From Polynucleobacter sp. AP-Jannik-300A-C4 (GTDB lineage: Bacteria > Pseudomonadota > Gammaproteobacteria > Burkholderiales > Burkholderiaceae), in assembly GCF_018688335.1 (NCBI RefSeq), contig NZ_CP061316.1, positions 186,001 through 250,000 of the forward strand: 64,000 nucleotides of DNA. Reading direction: 5' to 3'. The position numbers and the translations under genes are program-made. Of this stretch, positions 13,464 to 18,011 are shown one piece after another (the stretch's first letter is position 1; each line of letters opens with the position of its first letter). Below the pieces are notes generated by a model. It was not told where the DNA came from, searched no databases, and saw only the letters and a program-made list of their open reading frames with translations.

Positions 13464-14642
13464 ATGTTGAATTGGGAAGAAGAAGTTGCGCCGGCACTAG
13501 CAAGAGCAGGTCTCGCACAGCAACCAGTTGTGGCAGAACCACAGCGCCCACAAGCAGACGAAGTCGCAATTGCGCCTCAAGTCGCCGCGCCTACACAAGC
13601 CGCTTCATTAGGCGGTGGCGCAGCTTTACGTGTCAATGCTGCTGATAAGCGTGTAATTAATGCAAAGACTGACGTAAATCAGCTGGTTCCGTTTAAATAT
13701 AAGTGGGCTTGGGAGAAATATCTTGCTGGTTGTGCAAACCATTGGATGCCGCAAGAGATTAATATGAATCGCGATATCGCGCTTTGGAAGGATCCTAATG
13801 GCTTAACTGAAGATGAGCGTCGCATTATCAAGCGCAATCTTGGTTTCTTCACGACAGCAGATTCTCTGGCGGCAAATAATATTGTTTTGGGTACTTATCG
13901 CCACATCACTGCCCCAGAATGCCGTCAATATCTATTGCGTCAAGCGTTTGAGGAGGCAATTCATACTCATGCCTATCAATATATTGTGGAATCTTTAGGT
14001 TTAGACCAGAGCGAAATCTTTAATGCGTACAACGAGATTGAGTCCATTCGCGCTAAAGATGAGTTCTTGATTCCTTACATTGACGTATTAACTAACCCAA
14101 ATTTCAAAACTGGAACATTAGAAACCGACCAAACTTTGCTGCGATCACTCATTGTTTTTGCATGCGTGATGGAAGGTTTGTTCTTTTATGTTGGTTTTAC
14201 GCAAATACTTGCGATGGGTCGTCAAAACAAAATGACGGGTGCTGCTGAGCAGTATCAATACATCCTTCGTGACGAGTCTATGCACTGCAATTTTGGTATT
14301 GATTTAATTAATCAAATCAAGCTGGAGAACCCGCAGTTATGGACTTCTGCGTTCAAAGATGAGATCAAATCTATCTTCGAAAAAGCAGTGGAATTAGAGT
14401 ACCGTTATGCAGAGGATACGATGCCTCGCGGAGTGCTCGGATTGAACGCGCCGATGTTCAAAGGTTACCTAAGATACATCTGTAATCGCAGATGTTTGCA
14501 AATAGGACTTGACGCAATGTTCCCAAATGAAGAGAATCCATTCCCATGGATGTCAGAAATGATTGATCTGAAAAAAGAGAGAAACTTTTTTGAGACACGC
14601 GTTATTGAGTATCAAACTGGCGGTGCGCTAAGTTGGGAATAG
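13464..14642 (+). CDS. nrdB: Ribonucleoside-diphosphate reductase class Ia, beta subunit
   Basis: Carries the diiron centre and the radical that drives NrdA; 392 residues. Iron ligands D133 (TADSLAAN), E164 and H167 ([10 protein letters not shown]) are visible, with Y171 at the position of E. coli Tyr122, so a stable tyrosyl radical is expected rather than a Tyr-less subclass. The first 60 or so residues are an Ala/Gln/Pro-rich extension not needed for the ferritin-like core. An AGGAG site lies at 13453-13457. Cotranscribed with nrdA. Confidence 0.96.
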
Positions 14643-14713
14643 TAGTCAGGTAGAAAGCGCATAGCCGGCTAAATAGGAGATTAGACGGTTGGATAGTTTT
14701 AAAAGTCAGCAAA

Positions 14714-14755
14714 ACCAGACTCAAATCCGAAAACCCTTGTCCAAGGGTGTCTGGT
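14714..14755 (+). ncRNA. Nested hairpin downstream of nrdB (possible structured 3' UTR or small RNA)
   Basis: ACCAGAC (14714-14720) pairs with GTCTGGT (14749-14755), and inside it ACCCTTG (14733-14739) pairs with CAAGGGT (14742-14748). The two stems stack with no bases between their 3' arms and a 12-base bulge on the 5' side. The intrinsic terminator at 14788-14820 follows. Fourteen perfect pairs in 42 bases of a non-coding stretch are unlikely by chance. No known RNA family was recognised; several short overlapping reading frames here lack support. Confidence 0.4.
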
Positions 14756-14787
14756 CTACTCTCCCTATTTTTTCCAGCAAATTTAAG

Positions 14788-14820
14788 AAGCCGTTGTCCT
14801 TTGGGGCCACGGCTTTTTTT
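14788..14820 (+). terminator. Intrinsic terminator of nrdA-nrdB
   Basis: AAGCCGT (14788-14794) pairs with ACGGCTT (14809-14815) and is followed by an unbroken T run to 14820. It closes the nrdAB transcript about 145 bases after the nrdB stop. The rest of the 334-base gap up to the H1-like gene (14821-14976) shows no gene or convincing promoter. Confidence 0.8.
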
Positions 14821-14976
14821 CCAGGATTCATTAGCGTGCAGCACTTAGCATCAAGCCGCGCGCCGATGAATGGCTCGCTCGTCGGCTCCAATCGGTTGCA
14901 AAACCAAGCGGAAATGAATTGGTCGGGTCTTCTTAATCGGTAGTTTGTACTAATCCTCACGTGAAGGAGCATTACT

Positions 14977-15243
14977 ATGGCAATCGCCAAGAAAAAAGTT
15001 GCTGCAAAGAAACCTGCTGCTAAAAAGCCTGCTGCTAAAAAAGTAGCTGCTAAGAAGCGTCCTGCTGCTAAAAAAGCTGCTGCTAAAAAGCCTGCTGCTA
15101 AAAAAGTAGCTGCTAAGAAGCGTCCTGCTGCTAAAAAAGCTGCTGCTAAGAAGCCTGCTGCTAAAAAAGTAGCTAAGAAGAAGCCTGCTGCTAAAAAAGC
15201 TGCTGCTAAAAAAGTAGCACGTAAAGTAGCAAAAAAAAAGTAA
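14977..15243 (+). CDS. Lysine/alanine-rich histone H1-like DNA-binding protein, zero-frame product
   Basis: An 88-residue protein made almost only of Lys, Ala, Pro and Val in AAKKPAAKK-type repeats, resembling the eukaryotic histone H1 tail and the AlgP/BpH1-like proteins of betaproteobacteria, which bind and compact DNA without sequence preference. A GGAG ribosome binding site is at 14963-14967. The zero frame stops at 15241-15243 straight after a run of nine A residues; the -1 frame continues the same composition and ends in a non-repetitive tail (see 15234-15365). So this stop may give only the short form, or the gene may be frameshifted. Confidence 0.8.
   Translation: MAIAKKKVAAKKPAAKKPAAKKVAAKKRPAAKKAAAKKPAAKKVAAKKRPAAKKAAAKKPAAKKVAKKKPAAKKAAAKKVARKVAKKK
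15043..15168 (+). repeat. In-gene tandem repeat, two 63-base units
   Basis: Bases 15043-15105 recur at 15106-15168 with one substitution, and a partial third copy follows. Each unit encodes 21 residues of the Lys/Ala/Pro-rich H1-like protein. Such repeats are prone to copy-number change by slippage. Confidence 0.85.
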
Positions 15244-15365
15244 GTAAGCCTGCTGCGAAGAAAGCGGGCAAGGCTGCAAAAAAGCCCGTGGCTAACAAAG
15301 CTGCTACTTCAACTGCGTTGAATCCAGCTGCTGCTTGGCCCTTCCCAACTGGCACGCGCCCATAA
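15234..15365 (+). other. Putative -1 frameshift site and C-terminal extension of the H1-like protein
   Basis: Bases 15234-15240 are A AAA AAG in the zero frame, the slippery heptamer of E. coli dnaX, inside an A9 run and immediately before the zero-frame TAA. Seven bases later GCCTGC (15248-15253) can pair with GCGGGC (15264-15269). In the -1 frame the sequence stays Lys/Ala-rich (SKPAAKKAGKAAKKPV) and ends in ALNPAAAWPFPTGTRP before TAA at 15363-15365, a tail like that of betaproteobacterial H1-like proteins as I recall them. The shifted product would have 129 residues. A terminator follows at 15392. The frame change is certain; whether it is programmed, a slippage of RNA polymerase, a mutation or a sequence error is not. 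Confidence 0.6.
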
Positions 15366-15391
15366 GCTCTGCTTGTAGGCGGGTGAAGTTC

Positions 15392-15420
15392 AAAGGGATC
15401 TCTCACGAGATCCCTTTTTT
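15392..15420 (+). terminator. Intrinsic terminator of the H1-like gene
   Basis: AAAGGGATCTC (15392-15402) pairs perfectly with GAGATCCCTTT (15407-15417) around a TCAC loop, followed by more T. It is 27 bases after the stop of the -1 frame extension, so the extension lies within the transcript. Confidence 0.9.
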
Positions 15421-15446
15421 ATTAGCTCTTTTGAGAAGATTTTTAT

Positions 15447-16406
15447 CTAGAAGGTAAATCCGAACGCGGATTTGAACTGAGCGGCGATTTCATCTTTGCT
15501 CATTTGGTGATTTTGTGGTCCCTGATGGGTAATTTTGATTGAGCCCATCAAACTGGCTAAGCGGCCAGTAGTTTCCCAATCCATGCCATTTTCCAATCCA
15601 AATAGCAATCCACCTCGGAATGCATCACCGCAACCGGTTGGATCAACTACTTTTGCTGCAGGTACTGGCGGAATTGCGATGCACTTACCTTCAAAGTAAA
15701 TATCTGCACCTTCGGCACCCTTGGTCACGATTAATGCTTTCACCCTTTCGGCTACTTTGGCCAGACTCAAACCTGTCCTTTGAGAAAGCATTTCGCCCTC
15801 ATAGTCATTTACAGCGAGAAAACTCGCAATATCCACCAGCTCTAATAGTTCTGGACCATTGAACATTGGCAAACCCTGGCCTGGATCGAATACAAATGGG
15901 ATACCTGCTTCAGCTAATTGATGGCAGTGTTCCCACATTCCTTGACGACCGTCTGGGGCGACAATGCCGAACTTTGCTGCGTCTTTAGTATTCTTTTTGC
16001 GCTCTGCCACTACTGCAGAAACTTGGTTTAGATGGGATTCGCCCATTGCACCGGGATGAAAAGCAGTAATTTGATTATTAGCTTGATCAGTTGTGATCAT
16101 GGCTTGGGCAGTAAATGCCTGCTCAATCTGCCGAATATGTGTCGCATCAATCTTTAGTTGCGTAAGGCGATCAAAGTAAGGGGCGGCATCACCACCTACT
16201 GTTGCCATAATGATTGGGTCGCCACCGAGAAGACTGAGGTTATAGGCAATATTGCCTGCACAACCACCAAATTCACGGCGCATTGTAGGGACCAAGAATG
16301 CAACGTTAAGGATGTGAATTTGCTCAGGCAGGATTTGATCGGCAAATTTGCCTTCAAAGTTCATGATGGTGTCGTAAGCGATGGAACCGCAGATCAAGCT
16401 GGCCAT
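15447..16406 (-). CDS. PfkB-family carbohydrate/nucleoside kinase
   Basis: A 319-residue ribokinase-fold kinase. The N-terminal signature is GGCAGNIAYNLSLLGG and the C-terminal PfkB signature is DPTGCGDAFRGGLLFGL, whose aspartate is the catalytic base. The sequence resembles the adenosine kinase/sugar kinase branch found beside prmA in many betaproteobacteria; the substrate cannot be named. It follows the PrmA fusion on the same strand after 57 bases and may belong to that operon. Confidence 0.85.
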   Translation of the reverse strand: MASLICGSIAYDTIMNFEGKFADQILPEQIHILNVAFLVPTMRREFGGCAGNIAYNLSLLGGDPIIMATVGGDAAPYFDRLTQLKIDATHIRQIEQAFTAQAMITTDQANNQITAFHPGAMGESHLNQVSAVVAERKKNTKDAAKFGIVAPDGRQGMWEHCHQLAEAGIPFVFDPGQGLPMFNGPELLELVDIASFLAVNDYEGEMLSQRTGLSLAKVAERVKALIVTKGAEGADIYFEGKCIAIPPVPAAKVVDPTGCGDAFRGGLLFGLENGMDWETTGRLASLMGSIKITHQGPQNHQMSKDEIAAQFKSAFGFTF

Positions 16407-16463: not shown

Positions 16464-18011
16464 CTACTTTTCAGGGTAAAAAATTCTAACGCGATAGCCT
16501 GCAGCATTTTGTGGAAGAGAAATTGGGAGTTCAGAAGAAAAAATTTCACCAGAAGGCGCACCTTGGTTTAAAAAATCAGTATGTGATTCTTGCCAAGCGC
16601 TTGGTAACCATTCTTGCGGTGTAAATTGAATCGATTTAATCTCGGATTCCTCTGCATCTGTGAGTGTAATTTCTAAATTTGGAAATAAAACTGATAATGC
16701 GAGACGATTTTGCAACTGAACTTGCATTACAAATTGATTTAAATCGTTTTTAAGGCCCTCTCGCGCGTTTTCAGGCGAAAGAGTGACAGAAGTTATTTTC
16801 CATGCAGCAAAATCGCTTACAGAGCGATTTACGCACCTTAGTGCGCGGCACAATTGTTCGTCCAACTTCTGTAAAAGAGAAAAAGCACTGCTTGCTATCG
16901 GAGAAGAGCTGCCATCGACACGTGTTGCTAATGCCGGCAACAAAGAATTTCTAGAAAGATGCTCACCAAAAACAATGAGCAAGATTAAAAATAGGCTGAG
17001 AAGAATTAACTTAAGACTTTTTTTTTGAGCCGGCACAGAGGCATCTGTGTTTTTGCTGGTCAAATTTTCTGTATTGCCCTTTTCAGGAAGGGTGCCGTGC
17101 AAACAGACCCAACCTTCACTTTCTTTCCAGACGGAAAGGTTTAACCATTGGCTATAGGTGGCTATGACTTCTTCTGCTTGACGAGCTAGCACCCCAGACA
17201 ACACAATTTTTCCACCCGGACGCATTTTATTTACCAAGGCTGGGGCTAAAACTTGTAGCGGATTGGCCAAAATATTAGCCATGACGATATCGTATTTAGT
17301 TTCTGCAGCAAGTTCTGGCGCATTTTCATTGGGCAGAACAAAACGAATCACCGTATTGTTGATTTCTGCATTGCTACGTGCCGCAACCATGGCTTGTGGA
17401 TCAATGTCGGTTCCAACAACGGGATTGCAGCCCAGTTTTGCAGCAGCGATTGCCAGAATTCCAGATCCGCAACCGTAATCCAAGAGACTTTGGTTATGTA
17501 GTTGTGTATTTTGTTCCAACCAAAGAAGGCAGAGATGGGTTGTTGGGTGACTGCCAGTGCCAAATGCTAGGCCTGGATCTACCGCTAAGCAAATTGCATT
17601 CGGGTCAGTAGGCGCAACATGCCAGGAAGGTACTACCCAAATACGCTCGCCAATCTGAATTGGGGTAAATTGGCTCTGGGTTAAGCGGACCCAGTCCTGC
17701 TCCTCAACAATCTTTTGTTCAGGAGTGGGAAGATTGAATCCCGCTTCCTTGAGGGATGCAAGGAGCTCAGGAATGAAATTCACCGCTCCTGAGTCGTCTA
17801 ACTCAGGATTAAACAGCGCGGTGACTGAAGAGCGATCCCAGGCTTGAACCTCTGGTGAGAGTCCTGGTTCTCCATAAAGCGGGTTTTCATCATAGCCACC
17901 CGCAGCATCGTCTTCAACGGTGACAGAGAGTGCACCCACTTCCAGCAATGCATCACCCAAAGGTTCAGCAATTTCTGCAGGTACCGTGAAAACAAGTTCA
18001 CGATAAGACAT
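16464..18011 (-). CDS. prmA: Ribosomal protein L11 methyltransferase fused to a membrane-anchored DUF3426 domain
   Basis: A continuous 515-residue frame. Residues 1-308 are a complete PrmA, which trimethylates L11: FGTGSHPTT at 150-158, SAM motif LLDYGCGSGILA at 176-187, VGTDIDP at 199-205, NILANPL at 246-252. E. coli PrmA ends near residue 293. Here a polar linker (309-332), one transmembrane helix (about 333-348) and a DUF3426-like region (about 353-515; VQLQNRLALSVLFPNLEITL, FTPQEWLP) follow. In relatives DUF3426 is normally a separate downstream gene with an N-terminal zinc-ribbon; that ribbon is missing here. It is third after accB and accC. Confidence 0.9.
   Translation of the reverse strand: MSYRELVFTVPAEIAEPLGDALLEVGALSVTVEDDAAGGYDENPLYGEPGLSPEVQAWDRSSVTALFNPELDDSGAVNFIPELLASLKEAGFNLPTPEQKIVEEQDWVRLTQSQFTPIQIGERIWVVPSWHVAPTDPNAICLAVDPGLAFGTGSHPTTHLCLLWLEQNTQLHNQSLLDYGCGSGILAIAAAKLGCNPVVGTDIDPQAMVAARSNAEINNTVIRFVLPNENAPELAAETKYDIVMANILANPLQVLAPALVNKMRPGGKIVLSGVLARQAEEVIATYSQWLNLSVWKESEGWVCLHGTLPEKGNTENLTSKNTDASVPAQKKSLKLILLSLFLILLIVFGEHLSRNSLLPALATRVDGSSSPIASSAFSLLQKLDEQLCRALRCVNRSVSDFAAWKITSVTLSPENAREGLKNDLNQFVMQVQLQNRLALSVLFPNLEITLTDAEESEIKSIQFTPQEWLPSAWQESHTDFLNQGAPSGEIFSSELPISLPQNAAGYRVRIFYPEK

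Follow-up and report, generated by a model that had tools for sequence, protein, structure and literature searches.

The histone H1-like gene of the window, the whole 64,000-nucleotide stretch of Polynucleobacter DNA analysed here, closes its zero frame directly after a run of nine A, while the -1 frame continues for a further 41 codons. This arrangement raises the question of whether a gene of these freshwater bacteria is broken or whether its product is made in two forms by slipping at the run, and, if so, whether RNA polymerase or the ribosome slips. An earlier note, made from the sequence alone, had proposed programmed -1 frameshifting, with polymerase slippage as the alternative.

The site and its conservation across the genus

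The zero-frame ORF (14977..15243, forward strand) encodes 88 amino acids, its body comprising 88 codons of Lys/Ala-rich repeats, and is preceded by a Shine-Dalgarno-like aaggag, as seen by eye. Its 3' end reads GCA AAA AAA AAG TAA, the protein ending in KKK. The claims of the earlier note on this site were confirmed: the run comprises exactly nine A (15231-15239), the zero frame meets TAA right after it (15241-15243), and the heptamer A_AAA_AAG, in zero-frame register, lies directly before the stop (15234-15240). The bases following the run form a double-stop motif, GTAAGTAAG (15240..15248), with one TAA in the A9 frame and another in the frame of an A8 or A11 run, leaving open only the A10/A7 frame. 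The latter comprises 41 codons from GTA, VSKPAAKK..ALNPAAAWPFPTGTRP (15240..15365), and ends at TAA 15363-15365, so that continuation in the -1 frame would give 129 amino acids in total; the first proposal, two forms of 88 and 129 residues, reads the sequence correctly. Beyond the -1 frame stop, where a terminator had been placed, there is indeed a hairpin of terminator type with a T run (15392..15417, forward strand), seen in a scan that alone proves nothing, shuffled sequences yielding 1.6 such sites on average. The gene is flanked by nrdB upstream (13464-14642, forward strand) and by a PfkB-type kinase gene downstream (15447-16406, reverse strand), both named from a reading of their translations.

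A run of nine A is not rare in itself: the window contains two against 3.7 expected from shuffling, and the 2-Mb genome, counted over both strands, contains ten runs of exactly nine A, so that conservation is the question that matters. The only other A9 of the window (17018-17026) lies inside an ORF of the reverse strand (16464-18011) that joins a PrmA methyltransferase and a DUF3426 domain, in the stretch between the two, and in one of the other frames a stop codon follows within a few bases. Elsewhere in the same genome, two stretches resemble the repeats of the histone-like gene (850776-850920 and 613674-613847, loci L002 and L003); a plasmid collection gave no match. The dnaX gene of this genome, considered as an internal yardstick, is a single ORF of 558 amino acids.

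A DNA search matched 149 of 151 genus genomes, the best place being retrieved for 141 of the 149 and further loci being added later, and the census covered a genus set of 186 genomes. Of these, 131 carry the exact pattern B-A9-GTARNTAAR, one copy in each, whereas the reversed control pattern is absent from all 186; among the 144 genomes with completeness of at least 90% and contamination of at most 5%, the exact pattern is found in 108. The feature beyond chance is this conservation, not the A9 run itself, and the comparison of orthologues for run and stop, which the earlier note had called for, thereby came out in its favour.

Compiled by hand, the classes comprise (i) A9, 131 genomes, in 129 of which the -1 frame carries the tail after AAG TAA, the remainder being L072, in which an extra base upstream brings the gene into one frame, and L040, with an extra indel in the tail; (ii) A10, 15 genomes, 14 of the GTAGTT type and one (L112) of the -1 type; (iii) A8 of the -1 type, nine genomes, with the site GCT AAA AAA AAG TAA and the frame kept; (iv) A8 in another phase, two genomes (L088 and L115); (v) A6 of the -1 type, two genomes (L102 and L131); and (vi) a single frame with the run absent or shortened, 13 genomes (eight L125-type, L079, L135, L144, L216 and the partial L221). 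The other 14 of the 186 are unclassified, the gene or its tail being missing from the retrieved stretch, and seven retrieved loci have no tail. The -1 type thus accounts for 141 of the 172 classified genomes. The single-frame, heptamer-less close relatives that would have spoken against the proposal were sought, and in most relatives within the genus the A-run and the stop turned out to be retained together with the -1 tail. A single frame is found in the sister genera, in the A10 species, in one clade that lacks the run and in the scattered L072, L079, L135, L144 and L216.

Several unusual loci deserve separate description. In L088 and L115 the phase of the A8 run puts the tail out of reach of a -1 shift, which is either an error or a real loss. 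The locus L102 (genome G017, a single contig of 1.55 Mb) displays unusual Glu and Asn in the repeats and WPSPTG in the tail and has lost one of the two stops; its genome may be degenerating. The locus L131 (A6, TAG), from a draft genome, branches beside a single-frame clade and is treated as ambiguous, like L102. On reading, L221 is single-frame, and L136 carries an in-frame K K K but is interrupted upstream near a contig end.

The number of upstream repeats varies freely among -1-type loci (zero-frame ORFs of 49-122 codons), whereas the site hardly varies. The nine bases 3' of the run are GTA RNT AAR in -1-type and A10 loci, L102 excepted, with S, V, T, I or A as the second residue, an arrangement in which the tailed frame alone escapes an immediate stop; two of the retrieved locus sets were chosen by this pattern and the remaining loci were not. 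The A8 and A10 variants retain the frame by substitution, not by indel (L089-type, L112).

Codon changes were counted on a tree built from two flanking genes, with L146 dropped and low support at several deep nodes, for 115 loci, 113 of them of the -1 type and two (L088 and L115) in a differing phase. A TAA stands directly 3' of the run's G in 115 of 115 loci, in the zero frame in 113. The heptamer's Lys codons are nearly invariant: the three Lys codons of the site show 1, 0 and 0 changes, and TAA and GTA none, against 14, 17 and 11 at N-terminal Lys codons on the same tree (6, 7 and 9 with a residue change), counts that partly reflect a one-codon length difference at the N-terminus. The constancy of the site is itself partly due to the recognition of loci by AAAAAAG TAR; among 140 loci, L040 is the only one with an out-of-frame tail that fails this test. 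Elsewhere in these genes, KKK is written AAA AAA AAR in none of 334 cases. In addition, where an Ala residue precedes the run, its codon is GCA in 93 of 98 loci, compared with 240 of the 1749 Ala-before-Lys codons elsewhere in the gene, and this codon shows 10 changes on the tree, seven with a residue change, compared with 6-24 at tail Ala codons, which points to a constraint that is moderate, not extreme.

The tail and the proposed exchange of the default frame

The tail beyond the stop had been said to resemble the C-termini of related proteins, and it corresponds to the normal C-terminus of single-frame sister-genus orthologues, which end in LNPAAAWPFPTGSRP. A protein search across the family matched 206 of 249 genomes, genus members included. 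The 27 non-genus loci examined derive from six genera, with 18 of the 27 from one genus; all 27 align to the last query residue with no internal stop. In 21 of them a motif script finds the tail in one frame, with a longest A-run of 3-6, the motif being unmatched in the other six, and within about 3 kb an nrdB match accompanies 20 of the 27 and a kinase match 24.

Within the genus, the flank tree places 89 codon changes, but 5 residue changes, in the final 12 codons of the tail, although 75 of the 106 possible non-stop single-base changes in these codons would alter a residue. This excess of codon over residue changes argues that the tail is selected as protein in the -1 frame, which ordinary decoding of an A9 message does not reach.

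The A10 species reach the same tail without a shift. In 14 genomes the site reads GCA AAA AAA AAA GTA GTT AAR and the zero frame runs into the tail, as reading confirmed for 13 of them; the A9 frame is then closed by TAG and the third by TAA, and AAA AAA AAA is absent elsewhere among the 7 KKK of the A10 genes. A single base (A9 versus A10) thus converts the default product into the slipped one. Other single-frame cases are of different kinds: the L125-type clade has no A-run at the site, and inside the frame-changed clade L079 (G105) is back to one frame with A7 and L072 (G011) has one frame via an extra base upstream of an intact A9. The single-frame state of the two latter loci, reached by different changes, makes them useful controls.

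The rooted tree requires at least 8 changes of frame state, compared with a minimum of 24 in 200 label shuffles, and its reconstructed root is single-frame. In this coding, L136 and L147 were set single-frame by hand, L131 was taken as frame-changed, and L040, L117 and L142 were omitted; gain and loss counts are lower bounds, given the low support at several deep nodes of the flank tree. Five of the nine A8 loci are on the tree and need 3 changes. The -1 state falls into two separated groups, with weak support (0.49-0.83) at the separating and defining nodes, and there may have been two origins of A9, or a regain of A10. It is proposed, tentatively and with some doubt, that the ratio of tailed to tail-less protein would be set genus-wide by polymerase or ribosome slippage, and that a single base would have exchanged the default more than once (A10 long, A9 short), run and double stop being kept and both forms being under selection.

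Outside the family, in another family of the order, genomes G471, G588 and G618 (L184, L186 and L185/L187) have, in a Lys/Ala-rich gene of the H1-like kind, an in-frame A10 that precedes GTAGCTAAG, both other frames stopping at once as in the Polynucleobacter A10 species. This in-frame A10 type came from a scan of 300 genomes of the order, 3 of which have it, and is possibly an independent case.

Polymerase slippage, ribosomal shifting and other explanations

A conserved, functional frame change of one kind or the other is the strongly favoured explanation, and in Polynucleobacter the protein is very probably made in two forms, through slippage at the run. We infer that such slippage occurs, that it sets a ratio and that both forms are useful, from the observed conservation of the run, the stops and the tail frame. 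Polymerase slippage is somewhat favoured as the main route, and a mixture of polymerase and ribosomal events is possible. According to this reading, most transcripts would carry A9, and their translation would end at TAA to give the tail-less, K/A-rich DNA-binding form of 88 amino acids; RNA polymerase slipping on the run would produce a minority of transcripts with A10 (or A7), the ordinary translation of which would add the ancestral C-terminal tail, giving 129 amino acids from A10, with the third frame stopping at once as well. Ribosomal -1 shifting at A_AAA_AAG could add to polymerase slippage or replace it.

Three observations somewhat favour polymerase slippage, including (i) the extension of the run 5' beyond the heptamer in most loci, (ii) the retention of homopolymer and double stop by the A10 species despite the changed register of the heptamer, and (iii) the resemblance to Thermus dnaX and tssM. 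A homopolymer of about nine or more A or T, as expected of slippage genes, is present in most of the genus, as exactly A9 in 131 and exactly A10 in 15 of the 186 genomes. The second route named in the earlier note fits the comparative pattern somewhat better than its dnaX-like shift. Against slippage stand the A8 run in nine and the A6 run in two -1-type loci, where slippage should weaken and the heptamer is intact, together with the moderate constraint on the GCA before the run, and with the single tRNA-Lys and the slightly raised stability of the downstream RNA described below. The fact that A10GTA minus one A yields the heptamer automatically is neutral between the two mechanisms.

Ribosomal -1 frameshifting of the E. 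coli dnaX type, in which tRNA-Lys slips on A_AAA_AAG beside TAA with the help of a downstream hairpin, is a reasonable competitor to which a lesser but substantial probability is given. A heptamer of the form X_XXY_YYZ stands in zero-frame register in the window and in 113 of 115 loci, and the -1 loci examined keep it, the A8 and A6 variants included. Moreover, the sole tRNA-Lys among 37 tRNA matches in the window's genome is ttt (UUU), with no ctt, the condition that makes A_AAA_AAG prone to shift. On the other hand, the run exceeds the heptamer's need, and no Shine-Dalgarno-like stimulator was seen by eye upstream of the run in the window.

The downstream RNA gives a divided answer. The hairpin that the earlier note placed 7 bases past the heptamer (15248-15253 with 15264-15269) is GC-rich, stands at the usual distance and is present in the predicted MFE structure as GCCUGC/GCGGGC with 7 pairs; as a dnaX-like stimulator it is weakly supported, being no better than its composition would suggest (z -1.18, matched by 25 of 200 shuffles) and displaying no double change in 76 sequences. 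The alternative hairpin, overlapping the first (15264-15269 with 15284-15289), is paired in 92.7% of cells, a share reached by 1 of 500 shuffles, yet its covariation is weak, with two pairs showing a double change and three cells with double changes against 3.2 in shuffles; L058 and L091 were misplaced by MAFFT and by eye keep this second stem with a changed pair. The RNAalifold consensus amounts to -1.84 kcal/mol, almost nothing, the basal L084-type clade has neither stem, and no Rfam family came near its cut-off in 14600-15500. A conserved stimulatory RNA is not convincing, with weak or absent covariation, modest stability and a stem-less basal clade. Nevertheless, the stability of the downstream RNA is a little above the average of synonymous shuffles in 57 of 58 loci, with a mean z of -1.17, and GCG is enriched among the Ala codons of the proximal tail (242 of 619) compared with the body (14 of 3506), a soft contrast, because the codon usage of the body is repeat-homogenised and the distal tail also contains 99 GCG of 717.

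A broken gene, which lost its frame by deletion of an A and tolerates leaky slippage or an unexpressed tail without function, is improbable. It would account for the single-frame revertants L079 (A7) and L072 (extra base, intact A9), for L088 and L115, in which the phase set by the run would keep a -1 shift from entering the tail frame, and for the extra tail indel of L040; against it, A9 persists in 131 of 186 genomes though the gain of one A would restore the frame, the -1 frame of the tail is under constraint, and the Lys codons of the site change far less than the N-terminal ones, to whose counts the length difference contributes. Re-initiation, with the tail as a separate small ORF begun after the stop, is very improbable and was rejected for lack of a conserved start codon over the 115 loci: GTG or TTG precedes WPFP in the tail frame in 92 of 115, but ATG in none, 23 of 115 have no ATG, GTG or TTG there, and the GTA, AAG and CCT codons ahead of any such start are conserved in the tail frame. 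A homopolymer error of sequencing or assembly, to which A-runs are prone and of which L088, L115, L131 and L040 could be cases, has a negligible chance of explaining the genus and was ruled out by the census, as was a private mutation, the identical A9 recurring in 131 of 186 genomes, single-contig ones among them, the A8 and A10 variants holding the frame by substitution, and coverage above 100 being stated for several of these genomes.

Protein family, possible function and known systems

The protein was compared with profiles of histone H1-like families. The 88-residue ORF scores 34.2 bits against Pfam HC2 (cut-off 40) and 39 bits against NCBIfam NF038053 (hist_H1_lk_Burk; cut-off 80), and the single-frame genus relative L125 scores 70.9 bits against the latter, also below its cut-off. 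Orthology to NF038053-type proteins is indicated by the tail motif and the two neighbours of the sister-genus loci (21, 20 and 24 of 27 for motif, nrdB and kinase). A protein search with a single-frame orthologue returned, among the best 8000 candidates by shared words, seven proteins, two called 'hypothetical protein' and five without a name. The likeness to NF038053 and HC2 comprises the K/A-rich body, the C-terminus LNPAAAWPFPTGSRP and the nrdB and kinase neighbours, and the alignment of single-frame relatives reaches the end of the NF038053 profile; the differences are that the sister-genus orthologues examined are single-frame and that the genus proteins tested fall below the curated cut-offs.

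Judged from composition, the body is presumably a Lys-rich DNA-binding chain of the HC2/H1-like sort, and the tail is probably a contact or localisation element, because it is aromatic, proline-rich and conserved in the family. The short form might then compact DNA and the long form attach or regulate. By analogy with the H1-like protein that positions polyphosphate granules in P. aeruginosa (PMC9239181), granule or nucleoid positioning may be a role worth testing. That protein, AlgP, shares KPAA-type H1-like DNA-binding repeats with the histone-like protein but has an N-terminal domain that the latter does not, and the word 'frameshift' does not occur in the main text of the report (PMC9239181).

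If the proposal holds, most of a genus shares a conserved recoding of a bacterial chromatin protein, and a one-frame gene finder would truncate the histone-like protein in most of those genomes. The A-run variants (A9, A10, A8, A7, no run) would provide natural replicates for the function of the tail in Burkholderiaceae H1-like proteins and would allow tests of how the ratio of two forms evolves, and the gene would be a further case in weighing slippage against ribosomal shifting at A-runs. Events of this kind are known; the gene, the breadth and the within-genus exchange of the default were not found in print. The literature search, with supplements such as the GeneTack cluster tables outside its scope, gave no report of frameshifting in this gene. 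Neither Polynucleobacter nor a bacterial histone is mentioned in the main text of PMC3711429 or in the searched part of PMC5009743, and in the part consulted, a paper on translational frameshifting of chlD names a Polynucleobacter species for that other gene and leaves histones unmentioned (PMC9227772).

Compared with known systems, according to the parts of the sources consulted, the histone-like gene shares with E. coli dnaX the heptamer A_AAA_AAG, a single tRNA-Lys and, in the window, a downstream hairpin (PMC5009743, PMC3711429), but differs in that no Shine-Dalgarno-like element is seen, the shift leads to the longer product and the hairpin is not conserved across the genus. Slippage in Thermus dnaX occurs on an A9 run, both other frames being closed by stops, and nine A or T are reported to give efficient slippage in vivo (PMC5009743). 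The likeness to T. thermophilus dnaX thus comprises the run of nine, the nearby stops in both other frames and the two products (PMC5009743, PMC3711429), whereas the zero frame gives the long product in Thermus dnaX and the short one in most Polynucleobacter species. In tssM of Citrobacter rodentium and Yersinia pseudotuberculosis, slippage at A11 before a premature stop yields short and full-length forms, as shown experimentally, the default product being short in one species and full-length in the other (PMC4256274). Poly-A before a premature stop, two forms and a default differing between species are common to both genes; tssM is a secretion gene with A11, slippery sites being uncommon among tssM genes as far as that report was consulted (PMC4256274), whereas the histone-like gene encodes a nucleoid protein with A9 or A10, across a genus, and its slippage is proposed from sequence comparison.
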